DNA from: Calonectria ilicicola
Lineage: Eukaryota; Ascomycota; Sordariomycetes; Hypocreales; Nectriaceae
Length of the DNA stretch: 64,000 bases
Direction: 5' to 3'
Assembly (NCBI GenBank): GCA_020809705.1
Contig: CP085832.1
Location: 3,224,001-3,288,000, forward strand
Position numbers and translations under genes: made by a program. Of the stretch, positions 8,712-62,760 are shown piece after piece. The notes beneath the pieces are model-generated. The model did no database searches and was not told the origin of the DNA. It was given only the letters and a program-made list of their open reading frames with translations. Positions within the stretch are counted from its first letter, which is position 1; every line of letters starts with the position of its first letter.

Positions 8712-9006
8712 TTACAGTCTTGGCCTTGCCTCCAACTTTGAGGCGCTGTCAAGGCTGTACTTTGGCGCTCGGGTGTCAGGTGTGGTGGTTCCATTGACCC
8801 CGATTGAGATTTGGACCAAGCGGTCCGGGACGGTATCAGTATAGTATATGAAGGAGTCGATTGTGGAGGATTGGGATTGGATCCTGGGAGGCGGGTAACG
8901 TTAATAACTGCTTACTACTGACGTAGAAGAAGCGGCAAATGTGTAGCAATGCGTACGGTGTTTCAACAACAACTGTTGCGCGAGTGTCGGTGGAGGATTT
9001 GTCCAT
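8712..9006 (-). CDS. Small repeated-family protein, copy A (73 aa)
   Basis: Two-exon gene, 8957-9006 and 8712-8883, with a 73-nt intron (donor gtacgc, acceptor cag, phase 2), giving 73 residues. Exon 1 begins MDKSSTDTRATVVVETP. Exon 2 contains the family box FIYYTDTVPDRLVQISIG and ends in a basic tail. The structure was found by comparing this locus with seven others in the window that share the Met-Asp start, the intron position and the box. It is closest to copy B: the exon 1 sequences align, both use the gtacgc donor, and both read S-Q-S just after the intron. No signal peptide, membrane segment or cysteine pattern is visible. Function unknown; I do not recognise the family. Surrounded by more than 700 bp of non-coding DNA on each side. 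Confidence 0.65.
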
Positions 9007-9841
9007 GATGATGGTCAAGGCGGGGCTGCGAAGGGAAAAAGGGTGGTGAAGGTGCTATGGCATGGAATTATGTGTGAGGAAGTGCTTCGAATGGCTGAAA
9101 AGAAATGCCCGAGTTGTTGATGAGCCAAAATGAATGAGTGAGGCGGGAAATGCCATCCTTTTGTACTCAGGGGAGCATCGCTTCAAATGTGCACAATAAA
9201 CCAACAAAAACCACCAAAAAACCAGAGGCCACCGAAATTGAGTCATGTGGTGGGATTACTCTTGCAGACGACAGCATACTGACGAGCTGGTTGCCGAGGT
9301 GTGAGGCGCGTAGCCTTTGGATGTTTCTCGGAGCTCATACGACCTTGTCCCAAGGACCAAGTATTAGCGAAGCTGAAATCCCAATAAAAAATCCCCCCAT
9401 TGAAAGAAAATAACTCAAAGGGAAACGCATCTTCTGGGAATTGGACCATCAAAAAATGACGGTCAGTCGATCGGACTGTCTTCCACGTCAAGACTCAACA
9501 TTGCGGCTGACCAAGGGACCATCAGCTGTCGTCGTCCTGTAAAGCTAGAGGCACCCCCGAAATGTAACTAGCTGCATGCACTTCGTTGGAACTTTTTTTT
9601 TAATACATACGAATCAGATCGTTGGGCTTGCTGAAGTGGTGGGTGCCAGCGGAAAGTTATGGTGCTTTTGCACTGTTGCTTCTTGATATCATGCCCAAAC
9701 GGTCAAGCCCCGGTTCGTTTTTAGGTGGGTACGGGCTTGGTTGGATTGGATACGGAAGGGACTTGTTGTTAAATTTTCGGTGGCTTGCATTTAATCCCTG
9801 TGGTTCTTCTTTGGGTGCCTTTTTTAAGCCGCTGCGACAGT

Positions 9842-9869
9842 TAGTTCGCGTGGTTCGCAATGGTTCGGC
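9842..9869. repeat. TGGTTCGCN repeat cluster 1
   Basis: Three near-copies of a 9-bp unit: tagttcgcg, tggttcgca, then after one extra base tggttcggc. The same unit is clustered at 10404, 11247 and 38500. Function unknown. Confidence 0.7.
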
Positions 9870-10403
9870 AATGCGGCTGGTTACGCATGTACTTACTGCG
9901 ATGATGCGGGTCAAGATCTGGTTGCCTTCCAAAACGCGTTATGCCACAAAGCGCAGAACTCAAAGCCGCGCCCACCATCCCTGAGTTGCCCTACCCCTCG
10001 GTGAGCTCACCTTGTTCCGACCCAGTGGCTTGGTTTGTTGGAGCCAGCTGGGCCCAAGGCTGACCAGAGCGGCTCATGACATGCTTTCACGGAACTGCCA
10101 ATGATGCAGTTATCACGACGCTGTGCATTGTTATATCGACAGGCTTATGCTTCAGTGAACAATAAGCCAAGTACTTAAGTGACAGGTATCCTAAACTGAT
10201 GTATCGTTCTCTCGCGAGAGCCGTAACTGTTGGATGACAATGGCATTGTAATATTTTGTTGCCAGCACATCGTTCAATGGTGTCACATGCCCGGATTCAG
10301 CGCTTGCGTCATTAATGTTTTAGTGTCAAGTCAACATCCACGCCATGAGCAATTGGGTTTGCATTTGTTGGCTATTTCTGGCAGACAGGCGGCCAGACTT
10401 TGG

Positions 10404-10421
10404 TGGTTCGCCCGGTTCGCC
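10404..10421. repeat. TGGTTCGCN repeat cluster 2
   Basis: Two adjacent 9-bp units, tggttcgcc and cggttcgcc. Confidence 0.65.
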
Positions 10422-11246
10422 AGTGTGCACCGGGGCTTGGCCTATTTGGTTGGATGTATGAAGCGGAGTTAGGAAAGAGGGGCCCTGGACCTTTTGCTAG
10501 TTGGATTTTATAGTGATATCGGATCCCCTTGTTGCCTCGTGGTAATTTTATGGCTTGGGATGGTAAAATACCACACCATCGGCTCTTTGAAGACACATGA
10601 GCTTAAAATACCGTTTATAGCCCCTGGATGCCTTTGGCGAGACTGTTGGGGACTAAGATCTGCTGCTCCCATCGAGACGTTTTTTTGGGGGCTGCAAGTT
10701 TGTTCGCCCTGATGGCTTGACATCCCTGTAACGTATCGGTTTAGTCACCATAATGTCATTGATGAAGCTCATGATCTAGCTTGCTAATTGTGGAAAAGGA
10801 CAATTATTTTGGAACAGAGGGGCTATGCTTGAGAATAAACATTTCTCCAAAGGCGCTTTATCAGCCTACCAGTTTGATGTTTAGTACCTACTTGACTACG
10901 CTCATCACATCTTGACCAATTGTTATTTTTTCACATGATAGAAGTGATTCAACTAAGGCTTTTGAGTCTAGAATTCATCCCATGGGCGAAAGTGACAAAA
11001 TTTCCTTTGATGGGCAAATAACCGAGAAGACCAATGAGGCACCAAACCGCCTCTTGTTGGTACGGAGAGTGACAGAGATAAGAAAAAGATTGGAATTTGA
11101 ATCTAAGCCCACTTTGGTTGCCCTCGTACGTTGAGACTAAATGGGTCAGCTTTTAGTTGCCTAAGCTACCTGGTCATTTGATGGGCCAACTTTCGGCGAC
11201 CTTTTCAATGGGCTGAAGTTGGCGCTGAAGTTGGTGAAAACTGGAG

Positions 11247-11282
11247 TGGTTCGCATGGTTCGCCTGGTTCGCCTGGTTCCCA
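11247..11282. repeat. TGGTTCGCN repeat cluster 3
   Basis: Four adjacent 9-bp units: tggttcgca, tggttcgcc, tggttcgcc, tggttccca. This is the longest and most regular of the clusters. Confidence 0.8.
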
Positions 11283-12931: not shown

Positions 12932-13248
12932 TCAAGTCGAATGATGGTTTTGTGTATTGGTCGCATTGTTCTGGTTTTGGGGACTGGTGTCGATGTGGTT
13001 CATGTTTCGGGTGTCAGTCGTTGCGGGTCTTCCGACACCTGTCGAGATCTGGACCAGGCGGTCCGGCCAAGTTTCGGTGTTATAGATGAAGGGGCCGAGC
13101 ATGGATGTTTTAGATTGACTTCTAGAGACCAACACACGTTAATTGTCTTGCTCGATACATGCCAAACTAATGAAGAGTATAGTGGAGCGTACGCGATCTG
13201 GTTAACAACTGCTGTTTGGGCCCTTTTGGTGGTGGAAGATTGGTCCAT
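12932..13248 (-). CDS. Small repeated-family protein, copy B (81 aa)
   Basis: Two-exon gene, 13193-13248 and 12932-13121, with a 71-nt intron (donor gtacgc, acceptor tag, phase 2), giving 81 residues. Exon 1 reads MDQSSTTKRAQTAVVNQI; an in-frame ATG four codons upstream (13260) could also serve as start, but the Met-Asp start matches the other copies. Exon 2 carries SMLGPFIYNTETWPDRLVQI, then a polar Asn/Gln/Thr/His-rich tail. It is the closest relative of copy A, and both share the residues DRLVQIS after the box. No signal peptide or membrane segment. Function unknown. Nucleotide differences from copy A inside the box are largely synonymous, which supports a translated product. Confidence 0.65.
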
Positions 13249-16261: not shown

Positions 16262-16574
16262 CTAACACGGTTTTCTCTTCGGTACATTATAAATTATTTC
16301 GATTAGGGGCCGTATTTGATCCTGCTTAGCGGAGGCCGGGCTGACACCCTTGAGCCGAGGGTCAGACCCAATGCCCATTGAGATCTGGAAGAAGCGATCC
16401 GGGATGGTATCTGTGTTGTAGAGGAAAGCATTAAGTGTAGGGCACACCCATGCGGATCTAGGACGCGAAAATGTTCAGTATATCTCTTTCTTCAGTTAGA
16501 TGCAGGATTCAATGAGGTTTATCTTACCGAATTTGCTCCCTAGCCACGCTCTCATCATTTGAAACAGTTTCCAT
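16262..16574 (-). CDS. Small repeated-family protein, copy C (80 aa)
   Basis: Two-exon gene, 16528-16574 and 16262-16457, with a 70-nt intron (donor gtaaga, acceptor tag, phase 2), giving 80 residues. Exon 1 starts METVSNDESVAREQIR, the one copy with Glu rather than Asp at position 2. Exon 2 holds the box NAFLYNTDTIPDRFFQISMG followed by a Lys/Arg/Pro-rich tail. It groups with copies A and B through the QIS-x-G extension after the box. A TATA-like cataaatat on the minus strand at about 16714-16722 lies 140 bp upstream. Function unknown. Confidence 0.62.
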
Positions 16575-18884: not shown

Positions 18885-21800
18885 ATGGACCCTCTCACCG
18901 CTATCGGCTTCGCCACGAACATTATTACCTTTGTGGATTTTGGTTTCAAGGTAGTCGCTGCTGCAGCCGAGATCCATGGCTCGTCCTCTGGTAACACAGA
19001 GGAAAACCGCAGCTCCGAGGTCCTCGTGACGGAGCTGAAGCGCTTTGCTTCACGTCTGAAGCCCCCAGGCGAAACTAATCTGTCTGAGTCTGAAGCCTCT
19101 CTTTGTGCGATAGCAAAGGAGTGCAGGAGTATCTCGGAGCAGATGATTGAACTTCTCGGTAAAATAAAACCTCAAGGCCACTCAAAAATGTCCAGCATCC
19201 GGGCTGGATTTATGAGTCGGTGGTATGAAGGTGACGTCAAACGATTAGAGGAAAGATTGGTTCAATGTCGTGGCCAGCTTAACTTACAGCTCGACTATAT
19301 TACCAGGTAATAACTATGCCCCTTCAGTGCGTTGAAGAAAACACTGACAGATGCACCCAAGTTCTGAAAACAAAGAGAAAATGGAGAATTTAGTTGCGAA
19401 TGCTAGAGATAACTCTGACAAACTGGATCAAATAAAAAGCCAGATCGATACAATCCGCCAAGTTTCCGACTTCAAATCGCTAAGCCCTGGTTCTAGAACC
19501 CATCTGGAGGCTCTTTTTGGCCTCTCAGAACGGGCAAGTGATCTTATCGCGCAACACCGTATCCTCAACAGCCTCGCATTTGAAGGCATGTATGGACGCT
19601 ATGAAGCTGTGGACAACGCGCACTTTAGGACTTTCAGATGGATTTATGATTACGCCGAAGATTCCGAGACAGATAATGACTCTAGCACAATCACTTTAGA
19701 TGACTCCGAAAGCTCCACTGAGGCTGGGGTAGATGATACACTCAAGGTCACTGATGATATTAATGAGAACCAGGGACAAGTTTCAGACGAAGAAAATAGT
19801 GAGTTTATTGAGAATTTGAAACAATACGCATCAAAAAGCGCCATCGACGTCAACACTGACGATACCAATTCGATCGAATCATATGTGGCTGCCGATGACA
19901 CAAGGTCTCGTGCTAAACAGACTCTCGTCAATTGGCTTCAGAATGGACAAGGAATTTTTCACATTTCTGGGAAACTAGGATCCGGAAAATCCACTCTGAT
20001 GAAGTATCTCTACGACGAAGAGTATACTAGGTCACTGCTCCAACGATGGGCGGGTTAGTTGCATAACTTCTTTTTCCGGAATGATCTAAGTTACTGATAA
20101 TAACTCAGGTGATAGAAACTTGATATTTACGAGTTTCTTCTTTTGGAAGCCCGGTTCTTTTCTTCAAAATTCCCTGATAGGACTTTTCCGGTCACTACTT
20201 CATGACATGCTTAATGCTTGCCCTGAGCTTATACGTGACACGTTTCCAAAGCAATGGAATCTCGTGAAGTCTAGTCCATGGCAAGGAACTTCTAGCATCA
20301 GATTTGAAGAAGCTGATATTCGATGGGCTTTTCATCAACTTATATTTGATAAAAATGTTTACAAAAACCATTGCTTTTGTTTTTGGATTGATGGCCTTGA
20401 CGAGTACGAAGGCACATATCAAGCTGATTCAAAGGCACTCATCGACATGCTTTGTAGTTGGACAAATATAGCACCAACTACTGTTAAACTCTGCGTTTCC
20501 AGTAGAGAATATAACGTCTTTATGAACGCTTTGTCAGAAAATCAACGTATCCACCTTCACGAAGTAACTGAGACGGATATGAGAAAATATGTCTCAAGCC
20601 AGCTGGGACATATAAAAAATGACAGGGAACAATCGAATCTCATCAAATCTGTTGTGACTAACGCCCATGGGATCTTTCTATGGGTCGTATTGGTGGTGAG
20701 GCGCCTTCGTGAGAAAATTGAAGATGGAAGTACCTTCAAAGCCCTTCTCGAGGAAGTCGAAAGCCTCCCCAAGGAGCTAGATGCCTTGTTCACACATATT
20801 CTGGACTCACTCGGCCAGTCAGATCTAAAGAGAGCCTACCAGACCTTTTCAATGCTGACAAAACTGATTACATTTGAAAGTCCTCGTCTCACTTTGCTGG
20901 CTTACTCCTTTCTTGACGATTACACAACAAACTCTTCCTTCGCTATGCAACCGGGCTTTTTGGAGGCTTCGTTATCAGAAGAAGAGCGAAAGGAGAGGGA
21001 AATATTGGCACAGAAAAGACTCAATGGATGTTGCCGAGGTCTTGTTGAAGTCACGACTGATAGAACCGGCCATGGGTCTTTCCTCGCCCTCACACACCGA
21101 TCTATCCCAGAGTTCTTGGATCATCCAGGGCGAAGAGAAAAGATGATATCATTCCTAGGGAAATTTAATCCTACAGATGCGATTTCCCAACTTGCCCTCG
21201 CGGAATTAGTTGTTCACTCAGAGGTTATCAAGCAGGGGGGCGACCAAGGCTTGCTCTCTCCGCTAGTGTATTTGCGAACGGCAGAGAAACTAGACTCAGA
21301 GCCCTATATTTTTCTTGACTCACTCTCTGAGGCCTTGAGGCATTCTAAAAACTCTTTAAATCTGAGTTCCGAATACGAGAACTGGGACGGAAGTATTGAA
21401 ACGGAGATTTATGATCACCGCACCTATGCGTGGTCCCCTATTGGGCATTTCCGTGGAGTCAACCCAAAACTAATGCCCGCCGTCACAGCTCCTCACGATC
21501 CCATATACCTTGCTGCGTTCCATGGGAATTTTGGCTACCTGAAGTGGAGACTGGGAACAGTAGGTGTAGATCCAGAGGTGATTAGTTCGGAAGCTTTATT
21601 GTATTGTATAATGCAAAGGGACGAGGAAGATGATCAACTTGATCTGCAAGATGCGGTGGAGGCGATAATTACGCTCGGAAATTTAAAACCCAACGCGATA
21701 TCGCACATTAGCTTCTATGAAACCGACGAGCTAGACCCAGACACCCAAAAACCCACAAAGCCTGCGAGTCTAGCCATATGGTGGCATATTCTTGTGTCTC

Positions 21801-22426
21801 GATACCTATTGGGGTTTCACAGAAAAGAAAGGAACTGGGAAGTTATAATGGAAAAATATCTTGAGCATGGAGCTGATCCATACTTCCAGATTCGGATTAA
21901 TATGGACACATACAGTTCGAAAAATGCCACCACTATGATTGAGGGACCGAATCCAACTGGGGGGCAAACATTGGATTCCCAATCCCTTACAGTTCCAGAT
22001 ATGAACCAAGTGACATTGATTCTTGGCAAAAACAAGGAGGAGAAATTAGTCAAATTCGACTTCCGCAACGAAGATACCTTGCAGGAGGTTTTGTCTCTAT
22101 CTAGCTTCATTGAAAAGTTGGATTGTGAAAACGAAGCTCGGCTCTTGCAGCTTATAAAACGCAATGAAATAATTGTTGATGGAGTTGGAGTGGACTCTCG
22201 CATTGTGTCTCAAGAGTTCGATCAGAGTGAGGCAAATGGTACTCCTAGTTATCAAAGCATATCAACCGAGCCAGACCCAATGTTGAGCAACGATGGATAT
22301 TCCAAGATCGAGGCTGCGCAAAGAAAAAAACCTGCTCCAGAAACACCTGCAACTTCTGATCTCGCATTAAAACCTCTTGGACTTATTTTTAGTAAGTGGT
22401 GTCAAGGTTTGTCTGTGCAAGGTTGA
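18885..22426 (+). CDS. NACHT-domain STAND/NLR-like receptor
   Basis: Three exons, 18885-19306, 19362-20053 and 20109-22426, about 1143 residues. The first intron uses the acceptor aag at 19359-19361; the nearer cag at 19350 would give a stop. The N-terminus (MDPLTAIGFATNIITFVDFG) is the alpha-helical domain common at the start of fungal STAND proteins. Walker A is GKLGSGKST at residues 344-352. After the second intron come the typical block GDRNLIFTSFFFWKPGS and Walker B FCFWIDGLDEYEG near 461-473. Fungal NLRs act in non-self recognition and regulated cell death; this is family knowledge. The C-terminal third has two weak ankyrin-like stretches (PIYLAAFHGNFGYLKWRL; YLEHGADPYF) but no regular repeat array. 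A strong donor (gtaagt) at 22392 with possible acceptors downstream means the last few residues may be wrong. Confidence 0.88.
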
Positions 22427-30941: not shown

Positions 30942-31116
30942 TATCACACTTTGGTCATTGGGTCATAACGAGAGATTGAAAGAGCCTTAATTCCTATGAA
31001 ATAAAGAGCAGTTAACTATGTGTTTTATAGCTAGGTCCAGCCCTAATTGGCTGTGGGGCTGCGACAACGCATTGAGGCCGTGAGGCTATCGAGGCTAGCC
31101 ACAACTAGTCTCCACA
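30942..31116 (-). repeat. 3' LTR of the Copia element
   Basis: 175 bp, matching 37601-37775 except for six transitions. On the element's own strand it begins TGTGGAGAC and ends GTGTGATA. Confidence 0.9.
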
Positions 31117-31129
31117 TACCCCCCATTCC
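31117..31129 (-). other. Polypurine tract of the Copia element
   Basis: The minus strand reads ggaatggggggta immediately before the 3' LTR, the position and composition expected for the plus-strand primer. Confidence 0.75.
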
Positions 31130-37586: not shown

Positions 37587-37600
37587 CCCGGGCTCATAAC
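37587..37600 (-). other. Primer-binding site of the Copia element
   Basis: Directly inside the 5' LTR the minus strand begins gttatgagccc, complementary to the gggctcataac segment around the anticodon of initiator-Met tRNA. Copia elements commonly prime from an internally cut initiator tRNA, so this fits the class. Confidence 0.82.
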
Positions 37601-37775
37601 TATCACACTTTGGTCATTGGGTCATAACGAGAGATTAAAAGAGCCTTAATTCCTATGAAATAAAGAGCAGTCAACTATATGTTTTATAGCTAGGTCCAGC
37701 CCCAATTGGCTGTGGGGCTGCGACAACGCATTGAGGCCGTGAGGCCATCGAGGCCAGCCACAACTAGTCTCCACA
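37601..37775 (-). repeat. 5' LTR of the Copia element
   Basis: 175 bp, the partner of 30942-31116. Followed on the plus-strand side by the target-site duplication tagtt at 37776-37780. Confidence 0.9.
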
Positions 37776-37780
37776 TAGTT

Positions 37781-40610
37781 TAAACAAAACAAGATCTCTA
37801 ATACTGGTGACTAAAACAGTTTACTATGTAAGAATATTTTGCGCAGCCGAGGCTCGCATAGCTGTGAATATTGTGGTGTAAAAAACATAACGAATTAATA
37901 ATAATTAAAATATTTCTGCTTTCGCGCATTCTTGGTCTAATTTTGTGGAGGATAATCGCGATCTGGAAAATCTTCAATTCACCGTGAGAAGTCATTTTGG
38001 TACATACAGACGATCAGTCCAACCTACTGGCGCTCTTTTGCTCTAAGCTATCTGATTTGATAGACGACGAAGCCACGAGTCCGTAAACAATGCGCGTCCC
38101 AAAAGATAAGATGGTTTGGACTCTTGGGCTAAGAGTCTCCTGGGTCTAGCAGAGGACGCCGCTGGCAATGTATGGTGAAAAGGCATCCTAGATCAATTGA
38201 CTCTGTACTTTTTGATTGGTGGTCATTCTCATAGGCAGTTTGGAATGTGATCTCTGTATCAGCCGAACGAAAGGATTGGTCCCTTCGTGACAACTTTTAT
38301 TTTAGTTCAATCATCATATTTGCGAGTATTGAGGCAAGCCTTGGGTAAGCTATTGAAATCCTCATGCCTCGACTAATTAGCGCTCCAAGTTCCTTGATTC
38401 TCAAATATTTAATTATATCTAGGGTATGCAGCACAATTGGCTTAGTCACTCGATATGCAACCAAAATAACCGCTGGGCGCTGACTGCCTGTTTCCAGGGT
38501 GGTTCGCATAGTTCGCCTGGTTCGCAAGGCGACTCAATTAGGCGGACAAGGCCAACGGAAGCGTCCAGAGACACGTGGTCGCTCATTGACTTGCCTAGCC
38601 CCAAGAGAAAATTTTTCACCTAAATGACGAGGTACCTCATTGTCTGAAAAGGGGCTTGCTGTGTGCGGTTTTGCCGTGGGTTCTTGACGAGTTTGGCCTT
38701 TCATCACTGGATGCCAACAATCACCCTTTACCGCATTGGGCTGATCTCCTTTGTTATGCATCGCCCTCATCATAACTTTCTGGGTACAATTACCATGTGC
38801 GATGATTGTCATTAATAAGAGTACATGAAGCTAAACAACCGGTTTTTAGAGGAGATTACAAATGCGCAGACGCAAATTACTTCCCACTGCTGACGAGAAG
38901 TACACTTCATCCGAATGTAGCATGCAATACGATGAAATCCTACTTTCACAGCATTGACTTTCCGCTGGTCTGTGAGCACGAACTTCACTCGCATTTGCCC
39001 CGCTGGCTTGGATGGCATGGCTGGGGGTGGCGTCCTGACCTAAGGCAAGCTCTACGCCTCCAAGACGGTTGATCAGCTACGGGCGGTAGCTAATGCCGAG
39101 AAGCCTACTTCCGAGTGCATTATGATGTCGACGCTCCTGTCAATTCGTAATGGCTACTCCACCCCAGGGCCCCTTCTATTTGCTTGTAATTAAGTCGAGA
39201 GAAGAAAAGTGAAAGGGATATTGAATGCTAGCCTGCTGCGAGTACTAGCTGGCACAAGTGTGCCATTGTGGAGCCTTCGGTAGGCTGGGGCAGCACATCC
39301 TCCAGGACTGCCTTCGGACCCTTGCTGTGCTGAAAAGTCTGGAACCTGTCGATCGGACCCAGGATGAGGGATTCTTCGAACAAGTGGACCAACAGCCCGA
39401 GAAACGGAGCAGTGAAGATTAAGCCTTTGTACATGACTCTTCTTTTGACCTGGAAAGAAGCCAAAAAGGAAAACTGAGACCGAAGCCGGCTGACGCCATG
39501 CCATTGCTTTTGCCAAGAGTTGGCTTATCTAAATGAGTGGCGTGATTTGGAACCTGGAGCTTCCCCTGCCATTTCCTTCCTCTTTGCTCATTCCCTTGAG
39601 ATCGTGGCTGCGACTGTCACATATATTGATTCTTGAACCAATTAAGCGTCCACATCATCCCCGAGAAAATCTTCCGCAGCTAATGCGCAAGGTGATCCCT
39701 GACCCTCAAAAACCGAGAGCATGAGCTGTGCCACAGGGTGTCATTCTGCAGGCTTCTTTGGCGTGTTCTGGGTTCTCCACCAGCTAGCTGTACCTGGTAT
39801 TGTGGGATTGATCGACGGCCAAGCTGAGCCCAGCCGCTAAATTGAGAAGGCCCGTGATGCGTGTCGGCTTCGGCAATGTCGTATTCTCGATTGCATCGCG
39901 CCGCCAATGGCCTACGACTTTCCCTCGCCAAAAAAGTCCAATAGTCCAATAGTCCAAAAGTCCAAAGAAAAAGCAAGGGAAAAAAAGGATTAAGCAACTA
40001 AAAAGAAGCTTGGTGGTTTATTCTCCACCGTTGATTCCGCTCCGCCCCGCTCCACCTCGCCTACTGAGGGAGGAGTTTCGCTGCTGGTTTGGACAGCGGA
40101 GAGCGGTGGCTATATTGTAATCCAGAAAGTGCAGCAACTTCATCAAGCTCCTCAAGTGAACTTCCCCGACTATAAACATTCTTTCGCCTGGGAAAGGATT
40201 GGGTTTGCCGGCAGAGTGGCACCTTCGTCTCATTACTAGCTAGCCTAAAAGGAGGGCTGGGATCAAGGCGAGGCAGACGTGCAGCTGATGATTTGGGTTG
40301 GTCAAAGCTGATGGGACAATCTCTCCTGCATGGGCGTGCAGGGACCCAGTCTCATTTGGGTGCCCAACAACAAACAGCGGCGGGGACAGCATCGAGCTCT
40401 GGGAAAGATGGCGGGACAATGGCAATGGCACTCTTGTGATGAACGATTGATTTCGGTAGACTCTTTGCACTATATGGTACTGACAACGTTTTCCCTGCGA
40501 AACAAACCGATTCGCACTCCCCAACCAAAACGTATACCGCCGTCCAGTAACCTCCCAGTTTCTCATTCCCCTATCCTGTAGCTCAATTGAGCATTGGCTC
40601 AATCGGCATT
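37781..40610. other. Gene-poor DNA between the Copia element and copy D
   Basis: No supportable gene. Overlapping minus-strand frames at 39190-39516 include a hydrophobic stretch but no recognised domain. A TGGTTCGCN cluster lies at 38500-38526, and a short repeat of the unit agtccaat/agtccaaa at about 39935-39965. Confidence 0.4.
38500..38526. repeat. TGGTTCGCN repeat cluster 4
   Basis: Three adjacent 9-bp units: tggttcgca, tagttcgcc, tggttcgca, the same unit as the clusters at 9.8, 10.4 and 11.2 kb. Confidence 0.75.
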
Positions 40611-40879
40611 TCATTCCTTTTTTTGATGCAGCTTGCTATAATCTTTAGAGCCCTTTGCCTCCAAATCGCACTCAAGTTTGTTTAATATGCAATTGAGATT
40701 ATTCGGCGCAAGAAATGACAATCCTAACAATCGTTCCTGAATAGATGAAGTGTCATAAATATATGGATCAAGCATCGATCCATCGCCTTGTGGACTAGAT
40801 AGTGGTATGGTCAGAAATAGCTTCCCTTTGACTGCTCGTAGGCGACATACAATTTGCATTTGCTTGGAGTGGTGTCCAT
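40611..40879 (-). CDS. Small repeated-family protein, copy D (70 aa)
   Basis: Two-exon gene, 40851-40879 and 40611-40794, with a 56-nt intron (donor gtatgt, acceptor ctag, phase 2), giving 70 residues. Exon 1 is very short (MDTTPSKCK). Exon 2 begins PQGDGSMLDPYIYDTSSIQE and continues R-L-L-G; Tyr replaces the usual Phe at the head of the box and Glu replaces Asp before Arg. The acceptor ctag followed by tcca is the same as in copy H. The C-terminal part is Lys/Leu-rich and could form a helix. An alternative reading starts at an in-frame ATG inside the intron (40859), but the spliced form agrees with the other copies. Function unknown. Confidence 0.62.
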
Positions 40880-44494: not shown

Positions 44495-45821
44495 CTAGTT
44501 TGACACAGCCTTATTTTTCTCGTTTATTGCCAACGGGACCCTCCAAAATGGCATTCTCAAGCTTTCAAGAGCCTCTGTTGCGTATACACCACTTCCATGG
44601 CAAATGAGTTCATTTCTCGACTGTTCCTTATTCAGACCCCACTCACTTAGTGCATTAGGTCCTGGCCCATATACCTTACTATACTCCTCCTCGGTTGGTA
44701 GCCTGGGCCCAAGTTGTCGTTCTGTTGAGAGCGGCCACGCGCGCTGCCGGTAGAGGCGGATAAATTTATTGGCGTACCAAGATATGCTGTTAAATGAGAC
44801 TGGTGATTCGATTGGGACGTTGATATTGGTGGCATTTTTTCGAGGAGGGGCAAGTTCCAGGGCCCACCGTATATCTGAAAGCACCCCGCCTCTGTTCCCG
44901 AAACGAAGGATAGAAGTGAGGACATCAAACCCCCCCGAGGCCAGCAGCGATGCTGTTTGATCCGTCCAACTATTTGTACGACAATTAAATATACTTCTTG
45001 ATATATACTCTGGACAGGCAATAGTCTTCATTGGCACTCCAACCTCAAATTCTGGGGGACCCTGGCTAGTTGAAGGGGTAGGAAGCGCAAGACGCATCTC
45101 TTCCGCAGCGCACGCTTCATAGATGGTGAGAATATATTCGCGTACAAACGGAAGTAATTGTAGTTTAGATCCTGCAATGAGCTTTCCTTCGAACTTGTCC
45201 AACAGGGTCCAATCCCAATATCGAAAAGGATCGGATGTATTGAATCGATAGCTGCGCACCATGCCTGTAGGTTCCGCACCTTCTCGCCAAAGAGGATGGA
45301 GATTGATGTTATTATATCTGAAGGGCTCGTAGTCTTTTCCTCGGGGACTATATACTCGACAGAGCAACTCGTACCGAAGAAATGCCTGCAAAACCTGATG
45401 TTGCTGGTTTTCATTTAGGGCGTCTCTGTGAAAGGTTTCAGCCTCCTCATACAACTGAAGCTGAGTGTCGGTTTTGGACCATGTAGACCATTTTGGCAGG
45501 CGGCGATATGAACGCGGAAGAAATTCGCTGGTAGCTTTTGAAAGAAAATCTCCTATATAAAGCCACAGCCGCTCATGCATGGCCACCAAATCCAATACCA
45601 ATGAGGGATTTGAGTTGTATGGCGTCGTCGGATCTGGAAGGCATTTCTGCGCCCATTGACGTAGATGTGCACGAACAGTACGCTCGGTTGGAAAGAAGTC
45701 TCAGTTCATGGGAAAAAATGGTGATGCAAGTACGGAATAAGAGATATTTAGAACATGCATCGTGTCATCATGAATTGAAACGGTCTTTTACTTTCGATAT
45801 GCGAGCTGTATGTTCATCCAT
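44495..45821 (-). CDS. Uncharacterised fungal protein, about 405 aa
   Basis: A long exon at 44495-45682 is open and reads as authentic protein, including HLRQWAQKCLPDPTTPYNSN, AMHERLWLYIGDFLSKATSE and MVRSYRFNTSDPFRYWDW. The frame stays open past the first ATG at 45580 up to a stop at 45701-45703, and the upstream residues look coding, so an earlier exon is needed. The best model I can build is a 10-codon exon at 45792-45821 (MDEHTARISK) joined across an intron with donor gtaaaa to acceptor ccgag at 45683; this start is tentative. It resembles a type of long uncharacterised protein met often in filamentous fungi, without a named domain. No signal peptide or membrane segment. It is divergent from the coiled-coil gene, with about 165 bp between the proposed starts. 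Confidence 0.72.
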
Positions 45822-45985
45822 TCGCGCCTTGGCTTGTCTGGATCATGTTGCTGCTCAGGATGCTGTCCTTAGGATGGTGTCCTCAGGACGCCACTTTGGC
45901 ACCTTCCTCTCGCACATCCCACCGCATGGCATTCAATGGATTGCACGTCCATCTGCATTGGTACAGGATTCAACCACGAGTCAAA

Positions 45986-47821
45986 ATGCTCAACAAGAGA
46001 GGTCGATCCAAAAAAGCACGGGCTCTGGCCCTTCAACGTCTGGATGAGGTTCAGCAGAAGCTGCGCCCCCTCACCAAAGAGGGACAGGACCGCGCCGATC
46101 AACTTGGGTACGACTCGGACGGGGTACAGGAGCTGGAAGATTTGGTGGCTTATTGCACGGTCAAGAGGAGGGAAGGCGAGCAGCTTTGTGCCGAGATCAA
46201 TGCAGATTTGATCCGCTGCAGGTCGATCGTCAATGCACATGAGGCTACGCAGCGGACTCTCGACGGCCTAGATGCTCAGCAGGAGGACGAGGCTCGGCTT
46301 TTGGCGACCGACATGCTGACGTGGATGGCCAAACGCGAGCCGTCCATGATACTACTCATGAGGTCTTTGGGGAATAAGCTGCCAGGGGCTATGCTCACCG
46401 AACTAAAACAAGTGAATGACGAGGTCGCCAACCACAGAGTCGCCGAAGCTCAAAAACAGGCCGAGGAGGAGCTCGAGGCAGTACAGGGCACTTATAGACG
46501 TCGTCTCGCCAAAGCCGCCGAGATGATGGATCGGGTCAAGTTGAAGAGGGCCAACGCGCAAGAGCAGGCCGACATGGTTCGTTCCGAGCTGGAGGAGGCA
46601 CAACAGGCTTTGAAGGAGGTTAGGGCCGAGATGAAACAGAAGGAACTGGATGCCAAGGCTGAGCTCAAGGCCATGCGAGAGATGTTGAAGGAGGCCAGGG
46701 AGGAGGTTAGGGGTGGCAAGCGAGATGCCCAAGCCGAGGTCGCAAAAGTGATTGAAGAGCAAGGAAAGCGGCAACAAGCAGAGCAGGAAGCCCGAGACGA
46801 GATCGAAAAGGCCAGAGCTGAGACCGAGAGGATGAAAGAGCTCCTACGGCAAATCAAATCTGAGTCGAGGCAAGCACATGCTCAGGCCAACAGGGCCAAT
46901 TTGCAAATGGACGCGTTGCAAGAACGCTTGGAAGCCGCCGAGCGCAGCATCGATAAACATGCTTTTGAGGCCACATCCGCGAACAGCAAGTTGGCCGAGG
47001 TTCAGAAAAGGGAACTTGAAGCCCTTGCTGAGCTTCGGGAGGTGCGAGGGAGTCTCAACGAGGCCGAAACACGGCACGCCGACCGAGAAGAGATGTGGCG
47101 GGCAAGGGTTGAGTTCTTCTTTGGATCGGGTGAATGAGATGACGAATTCGATGGGGAGTTGCTCATGTCTGGTATGAAGACTGAGCAGAGCGAATGGAAG
47201 AGACCTTGGAAGCTGTTGCCATGCTGGGCAATGGGTGCTCCAGAAATGACTGGAGATCTTGGGACCACACTGCTGGAGCTGTTAGCGACGGCAAAGAGCG
47301 GTTGTTGGGACGAGGCAAGGGCAATAGAGGCACTCAGAGCCATTCTCAACCACATAGGCGATGAGCAGGTTGTTGCTATTCCACAGTGGACTCTTCGGGT
47401 GACGAAAAGAATCCTCCTTCGCGCGCTAGAGGCCAGTCCTGGGCTTGGCGTCCGATTCGCCATCTGGCAGGTAATTGAACTTCTCAAAGTGCGCTGGCTT
47501 GTTGATGTGCCAGTACCAAACATGGTCGCAGCCGATTTAGCATTCAGGAATGCGTATTACAACGTCTGGAACGTTGGGATTTGTGATCTTGAAGCCATGG
47601 CCTAGGGAAGTTTTGTGTTGCTAAAGCCCAATGAACCTGGCATTTTGGTGTTGGACATCAGTTCTTTCAGCGCGCGATGGATATCGACTCACATGATCAC
47701 TTTGCGCTTGGACGTGCTTCTTCTGGAGCCACCCGGCGGGGACGAAAGGTTTATGGAACTCAAGCTGAGTGACCAGCAACGCGCGTGGTGCTTGGCAAAT
47801 TTGTGTTCATCGGGGGTTTGA
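45986..47821 (+). pseudogene. Long coiled-coil protein gene split by two in-frame stops
   Basis: One continuous frame of 612 codons starting at MLNKRGRSKKARALALQRLD is interrupted by TGA at 47135-47137 and TAG at 47603-47605, giving pieces of 383, 155 and 71 residues. The first piece is a long, heavily charged alpha-helical coiled coil from about residue 110 to 380 (Glu/Lys/Arg/Ala with heptad-spaced Leu). The second and third pieces look globular (for example WDEARAIEALRAILNHIGDE and RITKRIL-like helices). Both stops could come from one C-to-T change (CGA to TGA, CAG to TAG), in keeping with RIP, which also hit the relic at 48.3 kb. Alternatives are an intron around 47130-47179 removing the first stop, or stop readthrough. 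An upstream in-frame ATG exists at 45845. I do not recognise the family. Confidence 0.6.
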
Positions 47822-48826: not shown

Positions 48827-50530
48827 TTATATTATTTTTAAATCCAACGACTTTTGATTATCCCGCATGACAACTCTTATAGAATCGCATGTTTTACCAT
48901 GGTGACAACAATTGTGATCATCTCCCCAAGATGATGCAGCAATCCCACGCTTATACACATCCAACAAGCAATACCAACGGCCTACAACTCCATCGGATTG
49001 TAGCTTGGAGAGGTTGTCAGCTCGCTCATCCTTCCACAAGCCATCTATCAAAACACCAACCACTTCCCTAGTCTCATTCTTTATATCCACATGCAGACCG
49101 GCGAGCCTTTCTGCGATTTCGTGGACATACTGAGAGATTTCGCTGGGCTGAGATGATGTGCGTCGTCTCTTGCGACCAGCCTTAACCTCAGGCTCTTTCA
49201 ACGCATCGATTATGACCTGCTGCTCCACACACCTGCAGTCAAGAACTTGGTTGGCTTTCTCCAGCTGAGCGGCCTTCTGCTCGGCATCTGCGAGCTTGGA
49301 GCGTAGGTCGTCGTTGGCCTCTCGAAGGTGTTGGTTCTCGGCCTGACCACAAAGTACAGATGCAACCTTGGCTGCAGAACTGTCAATATCCTTCTCGAGG
49401 CCAGCAATTTCTGTTCCAGACTCAGGCAAGCCCTTTTTTAGTCCCGTGATCTTTTCTGCGGACATGGCTACCTCTCGCTCGACTTCCTTGAGCCTTCCCT
49501 TGTAGCTGGCAAGCTCTCTTTCAAGCCCCTCAATCTTTGTCGTGGAACTCACAATCTCGCGCTCGCGTTCCACTTTGTAGTCGGCAAGCTCCTTCTTCAA
49601 CCCTTGTACGCGCTTGTGTCGTTCGGCTGCTTGTTCCTTAGTCTTGCTACTGTAGGCCCTGGACTCGGACAGCTCCTTTCTGACACCAGCCAGATCAATT
49701 CTCAGCTGTGTAATCTCTGTCGAGCTGGTAGAGTCTGCCTTTTCAGAGGCTGCCTGAATCCTATTGTAGCATGCCTGAAAAACATCTAGCATCTCGCCAC
49801 ATCGAGTATCTAGCATATCCAACTTGCCCGCTTGCGCTCTCAACAATTCACCCAAAGGACCAGCCATGAGTCGGATGTCGTTGGGAACTGTAGTAAGAGA
49901 GGCAACATCGGCAGAAATCTGCCCAACTGCCTTCCCCGTGACTCTGACGGTCTCGTCGATCGCATTCGCAGTCTTCTGGAGATCATCAATGCCATTAGCC
50001 ACTTGACCAATGTAACGTTGCTCGATCTTTCTCATCTCTTCGTCCAGGCGGTTCTCGAGTCCCTTCAACGTCGAGCTGAATTCCTTCAGGGTATTTACGA
50101 CCATTCCAACATCCTCTTATCGTGGCAATTTCTTCACGTCCACATCGACCTGCCTCAAGACCTTTGCGACAGTTTCCACCTGGATCTGAACACTGGAGAC
50201 GATCTTGTTGACATTGGCCAGGCCGTTGTTGGTTTCCTCTAGCGATCTTTGTCGACCCTCTTCCAGCTGCTGTCTATCGCGCTGGAGATTCGATTCCAAC
50301 CGCGCCAGTTCATCTTTCCGCTCGCCCAGCCTCGCTTCTTGGTCCTCCAGGGCTTTCTTCGCCGTTGCAATCTCGATTTCTCGAGCCTCGTGCACTGCCT
50401 TGCCCTCCTTCATCATAGGCGCCAAGATCAGTAGCTCCTCGGCCAGACCCTTGATGCCTCGAGCATCTCTCACACGTCCCTCGGTGCAGCCCCCGATAAA
50501 CATTTGGAGTGTTCTTTCAAATTCATCCAT
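48827..50530 (-). pseudogene. Second long coiled-coil protein gene, split by one in-frame stop
   Basis: A frame of 568 codons starting MDEFERTLQMFIGGCTEGRV is interrupted by TAA at 50117-50119, leaving 137 and 429 residues. Both parts are coiled coil: heptad-type Leu/Glu/Lys stretches run through the end of the first part and about residues 1-300 of the second (for example LREANDDLRSKLADAEQKAA). A basic cluster (KAGRKRRRTSS) in the C-terminal third could be a nuclear localisation signal, followed by a short globular end with several Cys and His (DDHNCCHHGKTC). TAA could come from CAA by one transition. The gene converges on the plus-strand coiled-coil pseudogene across the AT-rich relic. If translated from the second ATG (50104), a 425-residue protein is still possible. 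Family not recognised. Confidence 0.62.
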
Positions 50531-54058: not shown

Positions 54059-54352
54059 CTAACCGATCCCAGCTCCCTTTTTGGGCAGTTTAGGGTGTCT
54101 TCCAAGGTGACTCGCCAAAGCTCTCGGCTTCCCCAAGTCTACCCTATTCGTCATCTCACATCGCTTTTTTATTGTCCAAGGACGGGCCACATTTTTACTC
54201 AAGCAAATACCATGTGTGTTTTTTGTCATTTTCAAGCTGTGTGAACGGGAATCGGTGCTCCTTGCCATGGCATCTGGCGTGTGTATTACTCGGTCTTGGA
54301 GGGAAGATGTATTGTAAATAAATTGAGGAATTATCACCCTATCGGGTCTCAT
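54059..54352 (-). pseudogene. Fragment of the small repeated family, copy E
   Basis: A minus-strand frame contains IIPQFIYNTSSLQDRVI, a clear match to the family box. I could not find a Met-Asp first exon or a usable intron upstream, and the residues after the box diverge into a long unrelated-looking tail. Most likely a decayed or truncated member; a version starting directly at the ATG at 54352 cannot be excluded. Confidence 0.5.
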
Positions 54353-57300: not shown

Positions 57301-57539
57301 TTCAGTGCCCTCCCCCAAAACAAAACCCACAAACTCGACCGAATACAAACATGCTGCTATTTATTTTTTCTACTTTTTTTTTGGAAGGGAATGGTATTTG
57401 TCAATGACGAAAATACTTTGGATAAGATGACATGAATATGACGATGAATTGAAAAGGGTTGTTCTGGAAATTCCAAACGGTGACCCACAGTAGGGCATAC
57501 CTAGTATCCAACTAATTGATCCCCTGTTCGTCTGTGCCC
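54353..57539. other. Gene-poor DNA between copies E and F, with a possible decayed copy
   Basis: No supportable gene. On the minus strand at 55590-55780 there is a Met-Asp start (MDQGKQ), a donor-like gtgaga, an acceptor-like tgcag about 80 nt later, then CIIYDSSVVS, weakly like the family box but with a stop in the joined frame. This may be a ninth, dead copy. Confidence 0.35.
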
Positions 57540-57797
57540 CTACTGGAGTACTCTTCTATCCTCACGCGGCAAAAGCTGCATGGGGCTGACAGTTTGGCTC
57601 GGTGTAGAATTCGATCTTTGCATCAATCTATCCTGGAGGGACGAAGTGTCGTAAATAAATGCGGCCAACATAGTGTTAGAGCTCCCGGGGCTGTGGTTCT
57701 GCAAAGTCAGAATTTCCCTCGTCCACTGAAGTAGGCTTATGACTTGCGGTTCATAGATTTGGCCGTTTGACTGGTCACCAGAGGAGGTAGGATCCAT
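57540..57797 (-). CDS. Small repeated-family protein, copy F (85 aa unspliced, 70 spliced)
   Basis: An open frame of 85 codons from ATG 57797. It starts MDPTSSGDQSNGQIYEP and carries SPGSSNTMLAAFIYDTSSLQ followed by D-R-L-M-Q. Between these two lies a 45-nt segment (57699-57743) that begins gt and ends ctgactttgcag, with a good branch-point sequence and acceptor, exactly where the other copies have their intron. It is in frame and has no stop, so the gene could make 85 residues unspliced or 70 spliced. The donor (gtcata) is poor. A TATA element lies about 100 bp upstream. Function unknown. Confidence 0.6.
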   Translation of the reverse strand: MDPTSSGDQSNGQIYEPQVISLLQWTREILTLQNHSPGSSNTMLAAFIYDTSSLQDRLMQRSNSTPSQTVSPMQLLPREDRRVLQ

Positions 57798-60797
57798 TAG
57801 AGGCTGAAGGCAGGATGGAAATACGTGGGTATACTTGAAAAGTAAGAAGAACTTGACAGACTAGAATGGGCGCATGATAAAGACATGACTTGAGCTTTAT
57901 ACCTTAGTGTTCTCCCACAACTATTTCAGCTTGAAGATAAACCGATCAAGTATTCCAGCGTTGACTGTACGCTACTCGAAAGGCTTGTGCCCAGTCAATC
58001 GTCCAGATGAAGAAAGGGGTGCGAGAACATGTGCTAGAGCCCAAAGTTGAGATGGTGTCTCCACTGAGAGACGAAAAAACATGTTGTAATGTTGGCCGCT
58101 AGATTTGTAGTCCTGCAAATCGGCTTACGTGTGGTATTGCGAAAGGGAGTCCATCCCTGCTTCCCGACTTGCGATTTGGTAGTCGTTTGTTTCTGTTGTT
58201 GGCATCTCCCCCCGACGGATACTGTCGCACGACCTGTGGCTATTGCGGCGAGTCAGCACGAAGGGGTGGCAATATCCTCGCTGCCGGGGGACCCTCGTAC
58301 AGGGAGGTAAGGAAACACCCGCTTCATTTTTCTAGATTTATGAACTGCTGCGCAGTGTTTCATCTACAGTAATATGGCAAGAAAGATGCCCGCGGCGGTT
58401 TCGTATACCCACCCACCGTAAACAGGTCAAATTATGAATGCCGCACGACTCTAAGGCTGAAAAACTTTGACATATGCAATATATTTTGAAAAAGGGATCC
58501 TTCTATAAAAATTGGCTGTTTCGGTATTACAACAAGAGAAGCTGAAAGGTGAAACCCAAGATCTCGGAGTTCATCATTTACGCTCCGCCGCATTAGTTTC
58601 CTCGTTCATCAGATCCGAAATTTAAACGATTCTCGATCTTTGACCGGCAGCATGTACAATCTCTCATCGTACGTCATCCTTGAAGTATGGATCGGGTCGA
58701 GCCACGGTCGGGAATGGTTACACTGGACAAGGAGCTCCGCGATGGAGAGGTATTGTACATCACAGGTGATCAGATCTTGGCGCGTAATTCTAGCCTTGTG
58801 AGGTGTTCATTGGTACAACTTTATGCATCTCTGGAATTTAAACAGTATCTAGATAAGATGGGGTACACTCGATTCATGTACGCTATTCGAATTATAGATC
58901 TGTTAAAGCCCCGAGTAAGATAGCCGTAGTCAAAAGTGCTCTGGGGATTGATAGATTTGTACATTGCCCTTTTTCAAGAGCCTCTAGGACAAATTATGCG
59001 CCCCTGATCTCGACCCTTAGCCTTGACCCGAGTGCCCAAACTAGATCGCCCACAGTTGCCAAGTAAAGCATCAAACCCCTTGTTTATATATAGCAAGCAA
59101 GGGCTGCTTCTCACTACAAGCGTCCAAGTTCGTGGGGAAACCACCTCTCTAATTTATAGATTTGGCTTCAATCAGGGACTGATCGTATCTTTCTCGGGCA
59201 GCGGTCGCAGATGTGGGTTCGGAACAGATATACGGGTATATATTGACTTCGACGTTTCGCGGCCTGTGGAATGTAAGCTGAAACGGGGCAACGACATGTG
59301 AACCAACTCGCTTGGTAGTGAGGAGGCGAGGTTGTCATCATCAATCAGGCTATCGTCAGGAGGATATTGGCGCAATTACTCGGCGAGGCAAGCGACAGGA
59401 CGAGTTCGAGTGTCGAACGTCGAGCGTCCAGAAGACGTGACAGGCGGGATATAACACAACGCGAATGAGTGACATTCCATCCTTGGAAATATCCGAAGAG
59501 CTCTGTCGTGCAAAGAATCATCTTTCCTTTTCCTTGCCGCCCGTGGGAGCCATTCATCGTGATTTGGTTGCCTTACCTGAAGTCTGCCTAGAGTCGCCGT
59601 AAGGCAAGGCGAACAATGCGGATGGTGGAGCCAATGGGGCACAGCCGCCACAACGGATGCCAACGCTGCTTAGATCCTACGATTGCAGTAATTTCCTAAA
59701 AAAAAGAAAAAAAAGGGAAGGGGGAAAAATTATGCGAAAGGAGGGCTAAGAATAAGAATGTCGTCTACATGGGGTGGGGATGTGCCGACAAGATGACCGC
59801 AGAGCTCACTGTGGTGGTTGCGCTGTGCGGGGGAGCGAGAATGCACTCAGCGCCAGTGTGCAGGGGAACTCTCACTTCAGCCATCTGGTACACACGACAC
59901 GGGTAAACGACTGCCGACTAGTTCACATGCTATCGGTACATTTTACAATTCCTCATGTGAATAGCAAGGACTAGATTGAGTTAGCGTGTTGACCGACTTC
60001 TCTTGATGAATCCGCATCTCACTGTCTAATTCAATGTCGAAAATGCCACTCCAAGCGCACCGTACTCTAGGGTTGTTCGTTTCAATTGAACCACTCATCG
60101 CGCAAATCCATGCGTGGGGTCAAGCATAAGCACAAGCGGCATTCACTCTGGCCACTTTGGTTCACCTAGGCGAAAGCCGCCTGGGTTCTAGCAGACTGTC
60201 GGCAGCAAGGGAAATGCATCCCACTTCCATATTCATCTTTTCATTAGCCAAGAGATCCGTGCGGCGCATCCCACCGCCTTTGTATGTAGGCCTTGTTTGA
60301 ACTCGGATTGTGGGTCAGCGTACGGTGTCAAACCTCTGTGGGCACGGCTTATCGTCAACCGTAGTACGGAATTTATATCACAGTTAAGTTGGCTAACCAT
60401 TTAGCAAACAGAACAGAAAAATTATTGCCATCGCTCATAATAATAAATAATAAATTTAGCTAATTCTACGTCCCTTCTCCCAACTCTCGTTAATAGTAAT
60501 ATGCAACCTTCCTCCAATCAAGAGATGTAAATTTGTACTGTAGCTTGCAATTATTGACACGTTATGGCTTTGTAGACTTCGTATCGGGCGTGCAGTGACG
60601 ATGTACACAAATAGAGTCTGAAGTGATGTTTACTAAAACTAATTCTTTTCTTTCGATAAGGCTATTGCCCATATGGATAAATGAATTGTTTGTGAATGCC
60701 TCCATTGTTATTTCTCGGTGAACACATCGAGATGCCCTCATCTCAAGACGACACCTAGCATGCATTTCCCCTCGTTTCGGACACGTATGTATCTTGT
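57798..60797. other. Gene-poor DNA between copies F and G
   Basis: About 3 kb. Short plus-strand frames at 58687-58923 and 59023-59301 (78 and 92 codons) have clean starts but no recognised features. A purine-rich A/G tract lies at about 59698-59730. No gene called. Confidence 0.4.
57895..57901 (-). promoter_or_regulatory. TATA-like element of copy F
   Basis: The minus strand reads tataaag about 100 bp upstream of the ATG, the same word found upstream of copies G and H. Confidence 0.45.
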
Positions 60798-61105
60798 TTA
60801 CAACTTACTTGGCCCTGCAGCTCTTTCATTCCCGTTTATATGCTGAGGTTCGGTCGATTTAGCAATTTCGCTTCCCGTCGCAACAAGAGTGCGTTGCAAC
60901 AGACGGTCTGCAATGGAGGTTGTATTGTAAAGGAAGCGGGCTAGCATTGGGGCAGCTGTTTCTCGGCTGCGGAAACTTTAGTATCCGTTTCTCTCGGCGA
61001 TACTATTTCGTTAATTCTTTAGGGGGAGAGGCAGAAAATAGCATACAGTTCATGCTCACGTAAAGTGACTTTGAATCGAGGTGGGCTTTTTGTAGTTCGA
61101 TCCAT
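60798..61105 (-). CDS. Small repeated-family protein, copy G (67 aa)
   Basis: Two-exon gene, 61060-61105 and 60798-60955, with a 104-nt intron (donor gtgagc, acceptor acag, phase 1), giving 67 residues. Exon 1 reads MDRTTKSPPRFKVTL. Exon 2 has APMLARFLYNTTSIADRLLQ and ends GPSKL. It pairs with copy H: both start MDRT, both have a Lys/Ser/Pro segment after the box and both end G-P-[AS]-K-L. Their upstream regions are also alike. The intron phase differs from most other copies; an acceptor 12 nt further upstream would not keep the frame. Function unknown. Confidence 0.64.
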
Positions 61106-61239
61106 GAGTAGCGGTTAGGCTTAGGACCAGTGTATGTGAAGATGATCGAATCTTGGAGAGCATAGATGAAAGGAACTGTAAGCAGCGGAGAGATCTGGAG
61201 ACAAGTGAAGGAATCGCATGCTGCAGGAGTCAGTCAATG

Positions 61240-61247
61240 CTTTATAG
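61240..61247 (-). promoter_or_regulatory. TATA box of copy G
   Basis: The minus strand reads ctataaag, about 135 bp upstream of the ATG. The surrounding 60 bp resemble the corresponding region of copy H. Confidence 0.55.
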
Positions 61248-61590
61248 CTGCCGATCTCAAAATGGGCCACTTGGCATGAACAAGGCGACCGCCGACCCTA
61301 ACTTAATAGCACGCGCGTGGGCTCAAACATCCCGCGCATGCAGAGGAGATTTGAGTACATAGATAGACGGCTTGAGCAGGATGGGAGCTTGCCTATGCAG
61401 TAGTACACGTCTCCTGGTCTAACATATCACTACCCGGTCTTTTCTGGGGCGGGGAAACAAGCAAGATTTCTCTTAGCTATCATTGGATATAGCCTTTACC
61501 AACAATCCATCGCAATACCCACTGCCAGGCTTTTCTGGATTTCTAGGGAGGGGTGTTTGCGGTTTGGGGCGCCCCAGCAGAATGGCACCC

Positions 61591-61693
61591 CCAGGACAGA
61601 CACACCAGGTCAGACACACCCAGGTCAGACACACCCAGGACAGACACACCAGGTCAGACACACCCAGGTCAGACACACCCAGGTCAGACACAC
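61591..61693. repeat. 14/15-bp minisatellite
   Basis: Seven tandem units of ccagg(t/a)cagacaca(c), with lengths 14, 15, 15, 14, 15, 15, 15. The 14-base units carry ggaca and the 15-base units ggtca, so a 44-bp higher-order block is itself duplicated. Confidence 0.92.
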
Positions 61694-62461
61694 CCATGCC
61701 AGGCCGCGTGGGCCAATGGAAATGCAGATCGAGCAGGGACCGATGAGTACGGGCGGCCCTGGTGTGCGATATAGTCTAATGTGCGTTAAGCGGGCTAGAT
61801 CAAATCGTCCCAGCTATTGGCCTGCAACTGACATGCGTACAGTATATACAGTACAGACACAACTGTGCCCGCGCGCACCCGACGATGCCGTCGCTCCAGC
61901 CGCTAACGTCTCTAACTAGGGTTTTGCCCAATCAACTTTGGCGAGATCCACTTGTCCCTTTTCCCGCTTTTCCCCCTCCCTCAAAGAATCGTGCATTAGT
62001 GTCCCCAAGCTGATAAGAAAGAAAAAAATCAGCCAGCGGCCCAAGCAGGAGGGAGATCCAAAACCACAGGGTGACAGATACAACTTTATTTGGCCATGAT
62101 TTGCCCGACCAAGAAACATATCAACTAAATACTCAGCTTGGTCAGCTCTTGTTTGTAGTGTATGAGTGGCGTTGAAAAGCATAATTGATTAAATACGATG
62201 GGTTAACTCTGACCTCGTTTCTATGCTGACATCACCACCAAGCGACATGAGGCAGCCAACAGTCACTCTCTGTATATAATCACGATATGAAGAGTATCTA
62301 ACGTGGTATTTCCCTAATCTTGCAGAAATCACTCGAATAAATGGACACGAGACATCTCAATACCCAATGAAATAAATCTACATGCAAATCTTGAGCCATC
62401 TTCAGCAAAGTTCCATACCTAACCTCTATTCATCATCCTTCCCGCTAAATAGGCATCCTGT

Positions 62462-62760
62462 TCACAACTTCGCCGGTCCCATATTACTTTTATCGTCTTC
62501 ATGCTTAGGCTGGATCGACTTGGTAGGAGCATCTTTCGTAACAATTGCAGCGTGCTGCAACAAACGGTCGGGAATAGAAGATGTATCGTAGAGAAAATGG
62601 AGAAGCATTGAACTGCCTGTGTCTGGACTAGCTAAATGTCAGTATTATTGTCCGCTAATACCATCCTTTGAGTCTTTTTGGAGCAACGGGGAATAATTTA
62701 GAGTTCATACCCGTGGAGCAATGTCTTAGATACAAGTGAATTATTCATGGTTCGATCCAT
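62462..62760 (-). CDS. Small repeated-family protein, copy H (71 aa)
   Basis: Two-exon gene, 62711-62760 and 62462-62627, with an 83-nt intron (donor gtatga, acceptor ctag, phase 2), giving 71 residues. Exon 1 reads MDRTMNNSLVSKTLLH. Exon 2 begins PDTGSSMLLHFLYDTSSIPD and continues R-L-L-Q, then a charged tail ending GPAKL. It is closest to copy G by start, end and upstream sequence. With its consensus donor and canonical box it is one of the best-preserved members. No signal peptide or membrane segment. Function unknown. Confidence 0.68.

Follow-up and report, generated by a model that had tools for sequence, protein, structure and literature searches.

A family of small Sordariomycete proteins with one constrained core and frequent PTS1-like ends, locally expanded in Calonectria ilicicola

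A stretch of 64,000 nucleotides (nt) of the Calonectria ilicicola genome (contig CP085832.1, here C8, positions 3,224,001–3,288,000; hereafter the window) raises the question of why a series of tiny genes with a shared core recurs there on one strand, and what their products might do. The window belongs to a genome of 69.9 Mb in 12 contigs. An initial annotation had placed seven such genes and a fragment at 54.3 kb in it, had called the family unrecognised, and had listed peptide ligand, inhibitor, effector, and scaffold motif as possible roles. All eight loci were found in their places. We propose, with a probability of about 0.55, that the genes encode disordered microproteins conserved among Sordariomycetes and locally expanded in a gene-poor island, which would combine a docking core for one conserved partner with a C-terminal peroxisomal targeting signal type 1 (PTS1) and act as adaptors or regulators. 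Of the roles listed earlier, scaffold motif comes close to this reading, while a peroxisomal microprotein was not listed and a secreted role as ligand or effector now appears less likely.

Three protein searches, giving 1, 16, and 18 hits, were pooled into 24 distinct relatives of 42–137 residues, and those that bear a name are all called hypothetical. Eight of the 24 are given without a source organism. The named sources include Fusarium (F. oxysporum, F. zealandicum, F. nygamai, F. nematophilum, F. solani, F. falciforme, F. kuroshium, F. albosuccineum, F. decemcellulare, and one Fusarium without a species name) as well as Cylindrodendrum, Immersiella, Podospora aff. communis, and Schizothecium. 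A taxonomy look-up confirmed four of the taxa as Sordariomycetes, and we take the remaining named ones to belong to the same class. In the alignment of the 24 relatives, the core residues M, L, D, T, S, S, Q, D, and R are invariant. No paper recognisably on the family was found in the open-licence literature, including by searches with motif strings, and sequence searches of the PDB returned nothing convincing, with best E values of 0.41 (an Amot peptide) and 0.088 (a hydrolase).

The most telling evidence is a feature absent from the initial annotation, namely, the C-terminal tripeptides of these relatives. A strict PTS1 was defined as [SAC][KRH][LM] and a broad one as [SAC][KRHN][LMI], in which N and I are our own loosening; SKL, AKL, and SHL are given as PTS1 variants in parts of PMC13015374. 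A strict PTS1 ends 14 of the 24 relatives (SKL, SRL, ARL, or AKL; P0009, for example, ends SRL), compared with 2 of the 709 internal tripeptides that lie downstream of the core in these relatives. With the broad pattern, the counts are 18 of 24 and 3 of 709, respectively. By our count, at least four lineages have the strict tag (the F. oxysporum group, the F. solani group, F. nematophilum, and Sordariales), and its letters differ among them. Moreover, the rest of the tail diverges while the tripeptide shifts among functional forms. The different tripeptides across lineages (SKL, SRL, ARL, AKL, and SKI) suggest selection for the signal rather than mere kinship.

In C. ilicicola itself, protein queries against the whole genome placed 21 copies, including the window fragment: 18 on C8 and one each on C2, C3, and C9. 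Nineteen stretches were read, and these counts are lower bounds. The window contains seven intact copies and one core-only fragment, as follows (window coordinates).

8712–9006, minus strand: copy A, exon 1 8957–9006, intron 8884–8956 (73 nt, phase 2), exon 2 8712–8883; 73 residues, core FIYYTDTVPDRL, C-terminus PRL.
12932–13248, minus strand: copy B, exon 1 13193–13248, intron 13122–13192 (71 nt), exon 2 12932–13121; 81 residues, core FIYNTETWPDRL, C-terminus HST.
16262–16574, minus strand: copy C, exon 1 16528–16574, intron 16458–16527 (70 nt), exon 2 16262–16457; 80 residues, core FLYNTDTIPDRF, C-terminus KPC.
40611–40879, minus strand: copy D, exon 1 40851–40879, intron 40795–40850 (56 nt), exon 2 40611–40794; 70 residues, core YIYDTSSIQERL, C-terminus KKE.
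54287–54322, minus strand: copy E, core-only fragment FIYNTSSLQDRV, without AG at the usual acceptor place.
57540–57797, minus strand: copy F, 85 residues unspliced, 70 residues with a possible 45-nt phase-0 intron (57699–57743); core FIYDTSSLQDRL, C-terminus VLQ.
60798–61105, minus strand: copy G, exon 1 61047–61105, intron 60967–61046 (80 nt), exon 2 60798–60966; 75 residues, core FLYNTTSIADRL, C-terminus SKL (PTS1).
62462–62760, minus strand: copy H, exon 1 62711–62760, intron 62628–62710 (83 nt), exon 2 62462–62627; 71 residues, core FLYDTSSIPDRL, C-terminus AKL (PTS1).

To model the introns, all GT-AG introns that could link an ATG-initiated exon to the frame carrying the core were listed. 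The initial annotation had given the genes one intron of 45–104 nt at a matching site, and this stands for six of the seven intact copies (A, B, C, D, G, and H), each with a predicted GT-AG intron of 56–83 nt in phase 2 and an acceptor exactly 31 nt upstream of the core. For copy G, the 80-nt intron (donor GTATGC, phase 2) fits better than the 104-nt one. The structure of copy F is unsettled; its frame is open unspliced, and a 45-nt phase-0 or an 81-nt phase-2 intron is also possible. In copy B, an upstream ATG at 13260 is a second possible start. Copies A and D depart from the core pattern proposed earlier, reading FIYYT and YIYDT, respectively. A slightly looser expression matched seven times in the window and not once in 60 dinucleotide-preserving shuffles, a count that misses copy A and takes in fragment E. 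Likewise, the claim that all copies lie on one strand holds in the window (8 of 8 minus) and fails outside it. The C8 copies run beyond the window to approximately 3,336,400, and 17 of the 18 are on the minus strand, only copy J, outside the window, being on the plus strand; the binomial p of approximately 0.00014 assumes independence among copies, an assumption that tandem duplicates violate. A tandem array (window 61586–61696) with a 15-nt unit, CACACCCAGGTCAGA, in about 7.5 copies lies between G and H.

Across the genome, the splice site and the core are conserved. In 16 of 21 copies, an AG sits at a distance of exactly 31 nt upstream of the core; over the remaining offsets between 4 and 119 nt, the mean is 1.1 copies. 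All copies except J, E, and the one at 3,305,452 were spliced by hand, and from the genomic sequence a script regenerated each of the 18 proteins with predicted GT-AG introns of 45–83 nt, which attests to the consistency of the models and is not proof of splicing. Sixteen of the 18 are in phase 2, and 13 have the acceptor at exactly 31 nt; the other distances are 39 nt in F, 28 nt in I, 22 nt in N, 34 nt in the copy on contig C3, and 24 nt in O, with F and O in phase 0 and less sure. The proportions of nonsynonymous and synonymous differences (pN and pS) are 0.18 and 0.84 in the core (twelve codons in the 16 copies whose core has no indels, without M, N, P, Q, and E) and 0.66 and 0.75 in the downstream flank (next 16 codons, 15 copies). 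The flank values serve as a yardstick only, as their ungapped alignment does not reflect true homology. For the alignable pair I/K, pS and pN are 0.52 and 0.15 in the core and 0.47 and 0.31 in the flank. The third-position differences reported earlier were also borne out, with a share of 60% in the core compared with 35% in the following 16 codons.

Furthermore, in blastn comparisons extending 900 nt to either side, DNA similarity is largely limited to the core, except for I/K (640 nt), N/P (198 nt), and a stretch physically common to the overlapping G and H segments. That the similarity largely stops at the core speaks against a transposon. A transposable element was rejected as a candidate on this absence of repeated DNA beyond the core (I/K and N/P excepted) and of any Pfam hit above the cut-off: none of the seven window proteins has a match above the curated cut-off, and the family has no convincing match in Pfam or NCBIfam. 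Collectively, the low pN of the core, the reproduced models, and the relatives annotated elsewhere support what had been claimed from the window, a presumably expressed family of small proteins with one constrained motif that is neither a recognised family nor a known transposon frame.

Based on the 24-row alignment, AlphaFold predicts mostly disorder and one helix, residues 36–50 of P0001, which begins inside the core. This prediction fits a short linear docking motif, with an extended ML..FIYDTSS and then a helix from LQDRL. The family proteins, mostly about 65–90 residues long, would accordingly be pictured as disordered chains with two working parts, a docking motif and a C-terminal tag. 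The motif of about 16 residues, ML-x-x-[FY][IL]Y-D-T-S-S-[IL]-Q-D-R-L, would form an extended hydrophobic stretch and then a short capped helix, and the PTS1 tripeptide of most relatives found would be recognised by PEX5 for peroxisomal import. The core would bind one conserved partner, whichever protein that may be, and the microprotein might carry this partner in with it or hold or modulate it inside the matrix. In the gene-poor island, the family has expanded by local duplication, with the tag kept in a few copies and absent from most; as a speculation, the untagged ones could bind this partner in the cytosol and compete for it outside the peroxisome. An adaptor or regulator that is imported by PEX5 and binds one conserved partner is, in our view, the most economical mechanism.

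Several observations weigh against this proposal. The PTS1 calls were made by tripeptide pattern, and six of the 24 relatives (P0002, P0004, P0012, P0013, P0016, and P0019) have no PTS1-like end, P0019 ending AKP, one step from a PTS1. Many of the 24 are close kin, and 14 of 24 overstates their independence. Confidence in the AlphaFold model is low, with a mean predicted local distance difference test (pLDDT) of 59.6 and a predicted template modeling score (pTM) of 0.25. In this genome, with fragment E left out, a strict PTS1 ends 2 of 20 copies (G and H) and a broad one 4 of 20 (in addition, copy R with SRI and the copy on contig C2 with ANI), leaving 16 of 20 without a PTS1-like end. No hidden 3′ intron capable of restoring a PTS1 turned up in any of the 21 copies when restricted donor patterns and introns of about 45–122 nt were considered. 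For most copies of the cluster, the tag could thus be irrelevant.

The constraint that the core retains across these untagged copies would suit cytosolic or nuclear regulators, whose core docks a non-peroxisomal partner, whose tripeptides are incidental or lineage-limited, and whose cluster is an ordinary birth-and-death family. We consider this explanation possible but doubtful, as it is at odds with the excess of PTS1 ends over internal tripeptides in the relatives and with a tripeptide that varies among functional forms while the tail diverges. The cluster appears to capture a family whose members are in the course of losing the organelle tag. A further, rather unlikely possibility is a titration switch, in which all copies bind the same partner, the tagged G and H import it, the untagged copies hold it in the cytosol, and the expressed mix sets where the partner works. 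If true, this would be a multigene motif-plus-tag system controlling the organelle import of one protein.

The surroundings of the cluster bear on a different reading. In the island (C8:3,232,201–3,338,500, approximately 105 kb), open frames of at least 170 codons, overlapping ones included, number 1.9 per 10 kb compared with 7.2 and 8.9 in its flanks. A uL24m gene marks its left edge, and an open frame that looks UreG-like to us presumably marks the right edge. A Pfam scan of ten window frames identified Zn2Cys6 and uL24m genes and, among the family copies, a STAND-type gene (window 18885–22426, plus strand, three open frames, with NPHP3_N and DUF7791 matches in the second and third). This gene, together with numerous copies that have diverged outside the core, might point to a fast-turnover cluster of ligands or toxins of self, that is, a family for allorecognition or killing or one linked to NLR (nucleotide-binding, leucine-rich repeat) proteins. 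Such a role is improbable: the scan identified only one NPHP3_N/DUF7791 gene, the core is kept across genera, which is unusual for allorecognition ligands, and the PTS1 ends would be unexplained. A hydropathy scan of the 18 models revealed no strong hydrophobic N-terminal stretch (highest 9-residue means −0.03 to 1.72), which makes secretion as a ligand or effector appear less likely.

Further features lie in the island. C8:3283171–3283599 (window approximately 59171–59599) resembles C8:3307696–3308347 in translations of both strands, which suggests segmental duplication within the island, and other duplicated stretches look like duplication debris. The block at window positions of approximately 31000–38000 is AT-rich (GC approximately 0.20–0.32 in 2-kb steps) and is possibly repeat DNA affected by repeat-induced point mutation. 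Long open frames at window 44495–45601 (minus) and 45845–47137 (plus) have no Pfam match at 0.01, and another at 48827–50104 (minus) has only coiled-coil-type matches below the cut-off.

The import receptors themselves offer a likeness to the core. The N-terminus of PEX5 in this genome reads NPLSQLHKHVQDDKTLQRDRLVG, with a loose L..[LF]...LQ.DRL resemblance. Parts of PMC9788354 and PMC13015374 describe a role of the N-terminal region of PEX5/PEX20 in retro-translocation, and the same N-terminus is treated in parts of PMC8172628 and PMC9279156. The microproteins could accordingly be imagined as intraperoxisomal modulators of receptor recycling, with a core that would mimic the PEX5/PEX20 stretch following the ubiquitinated cysteine and, acting from the matrix, would engage the machinery that exports the receptor. 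We regard this as very unlikely, as the likeness to the family profile needs a 4-residue gap, scores 0.9 bits, is reached by 18 of 1000 shuffles, and stems from a comparison picked after the fact, and the microproteins have no cysteine in invariant or nearly invariant columns. Membership in the PEX5/PEX20 receptor family was rejected, given that neither the conserved N-terminal cysteine nor the receptor motif is present; in addition, their 65–90 residues hold no TPR or PEX7-binding part. To our knowledge, PEX5 itself does not end in a PTS1. Finally, that there is no protein family at all, only remnants of a mobile element or a conserved DNA or RNA motif dispersed through a gene-poor, partly AT-rich region, is hardly tenable in view of the third-position pattern, the low pN, the fixed splice acceptor, the similarity mostly ending at the core, the annotated relatives in other genera, the lack of a Pfam hit above the curated cut-off, and zero Rfam matches in the window.

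A conserved family without a name, with its own peroxisome tag in most relatives found, would be present in a large fungal class to which both laboratory models and crop pathogens belong. Annotation readily overlooks such genes, as the 24 relatives, all hypothetical or nameless, illustrate. The strict core makes a search for the putative partner straightforward, and the partner might in turn expose a new level of regulation of what enters fungal peroxisomes or works in them.

Two other known systems invite comparison. HEX-1 is the protein of the Woronin body, which is derived from the peroxisome, and Neurospora HEX-1 contains a similar stretch, IDQSSLWNRL. A single HEX-1 per genome is expected; four HEX-1-like matches occur here (C5:5412535, C2:1565890, C1:402483, and C1:400713), exceeding that number. 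Of these, HEX-1 and a paralog were read; their C-termini, SHL and SNL, are PTS1-like as in the family. An origin of the family from HEX-1 was rejected, given that the IDQSSLWNRL-like stretch is not kept in either protein and that the profile score of −11.4 is matched by 500 of 1000 shuffles.

The other system is Pls1 (Ynl097c-b) of Saccharomyces cerevisiae, which parts of PMC9104712 describe as a 40-residue peroxisomal matrix microprotein whose location needs its partner enzyme Lys1 and which affects Lys1 abundance. Compared by description only, Pls1 and the family have in common that they are microproteins, and Pls1 is a precedent for a matrix peptide that depends on a partner. As those parts present it, Pls1 is a single gene, in S. 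cerevisiae only, without a PTS1 of its own, and rides on Lys1. In contrast, the family described here is multigene, is conserved between orders, and has its own PTS1 in most of the relatives found.

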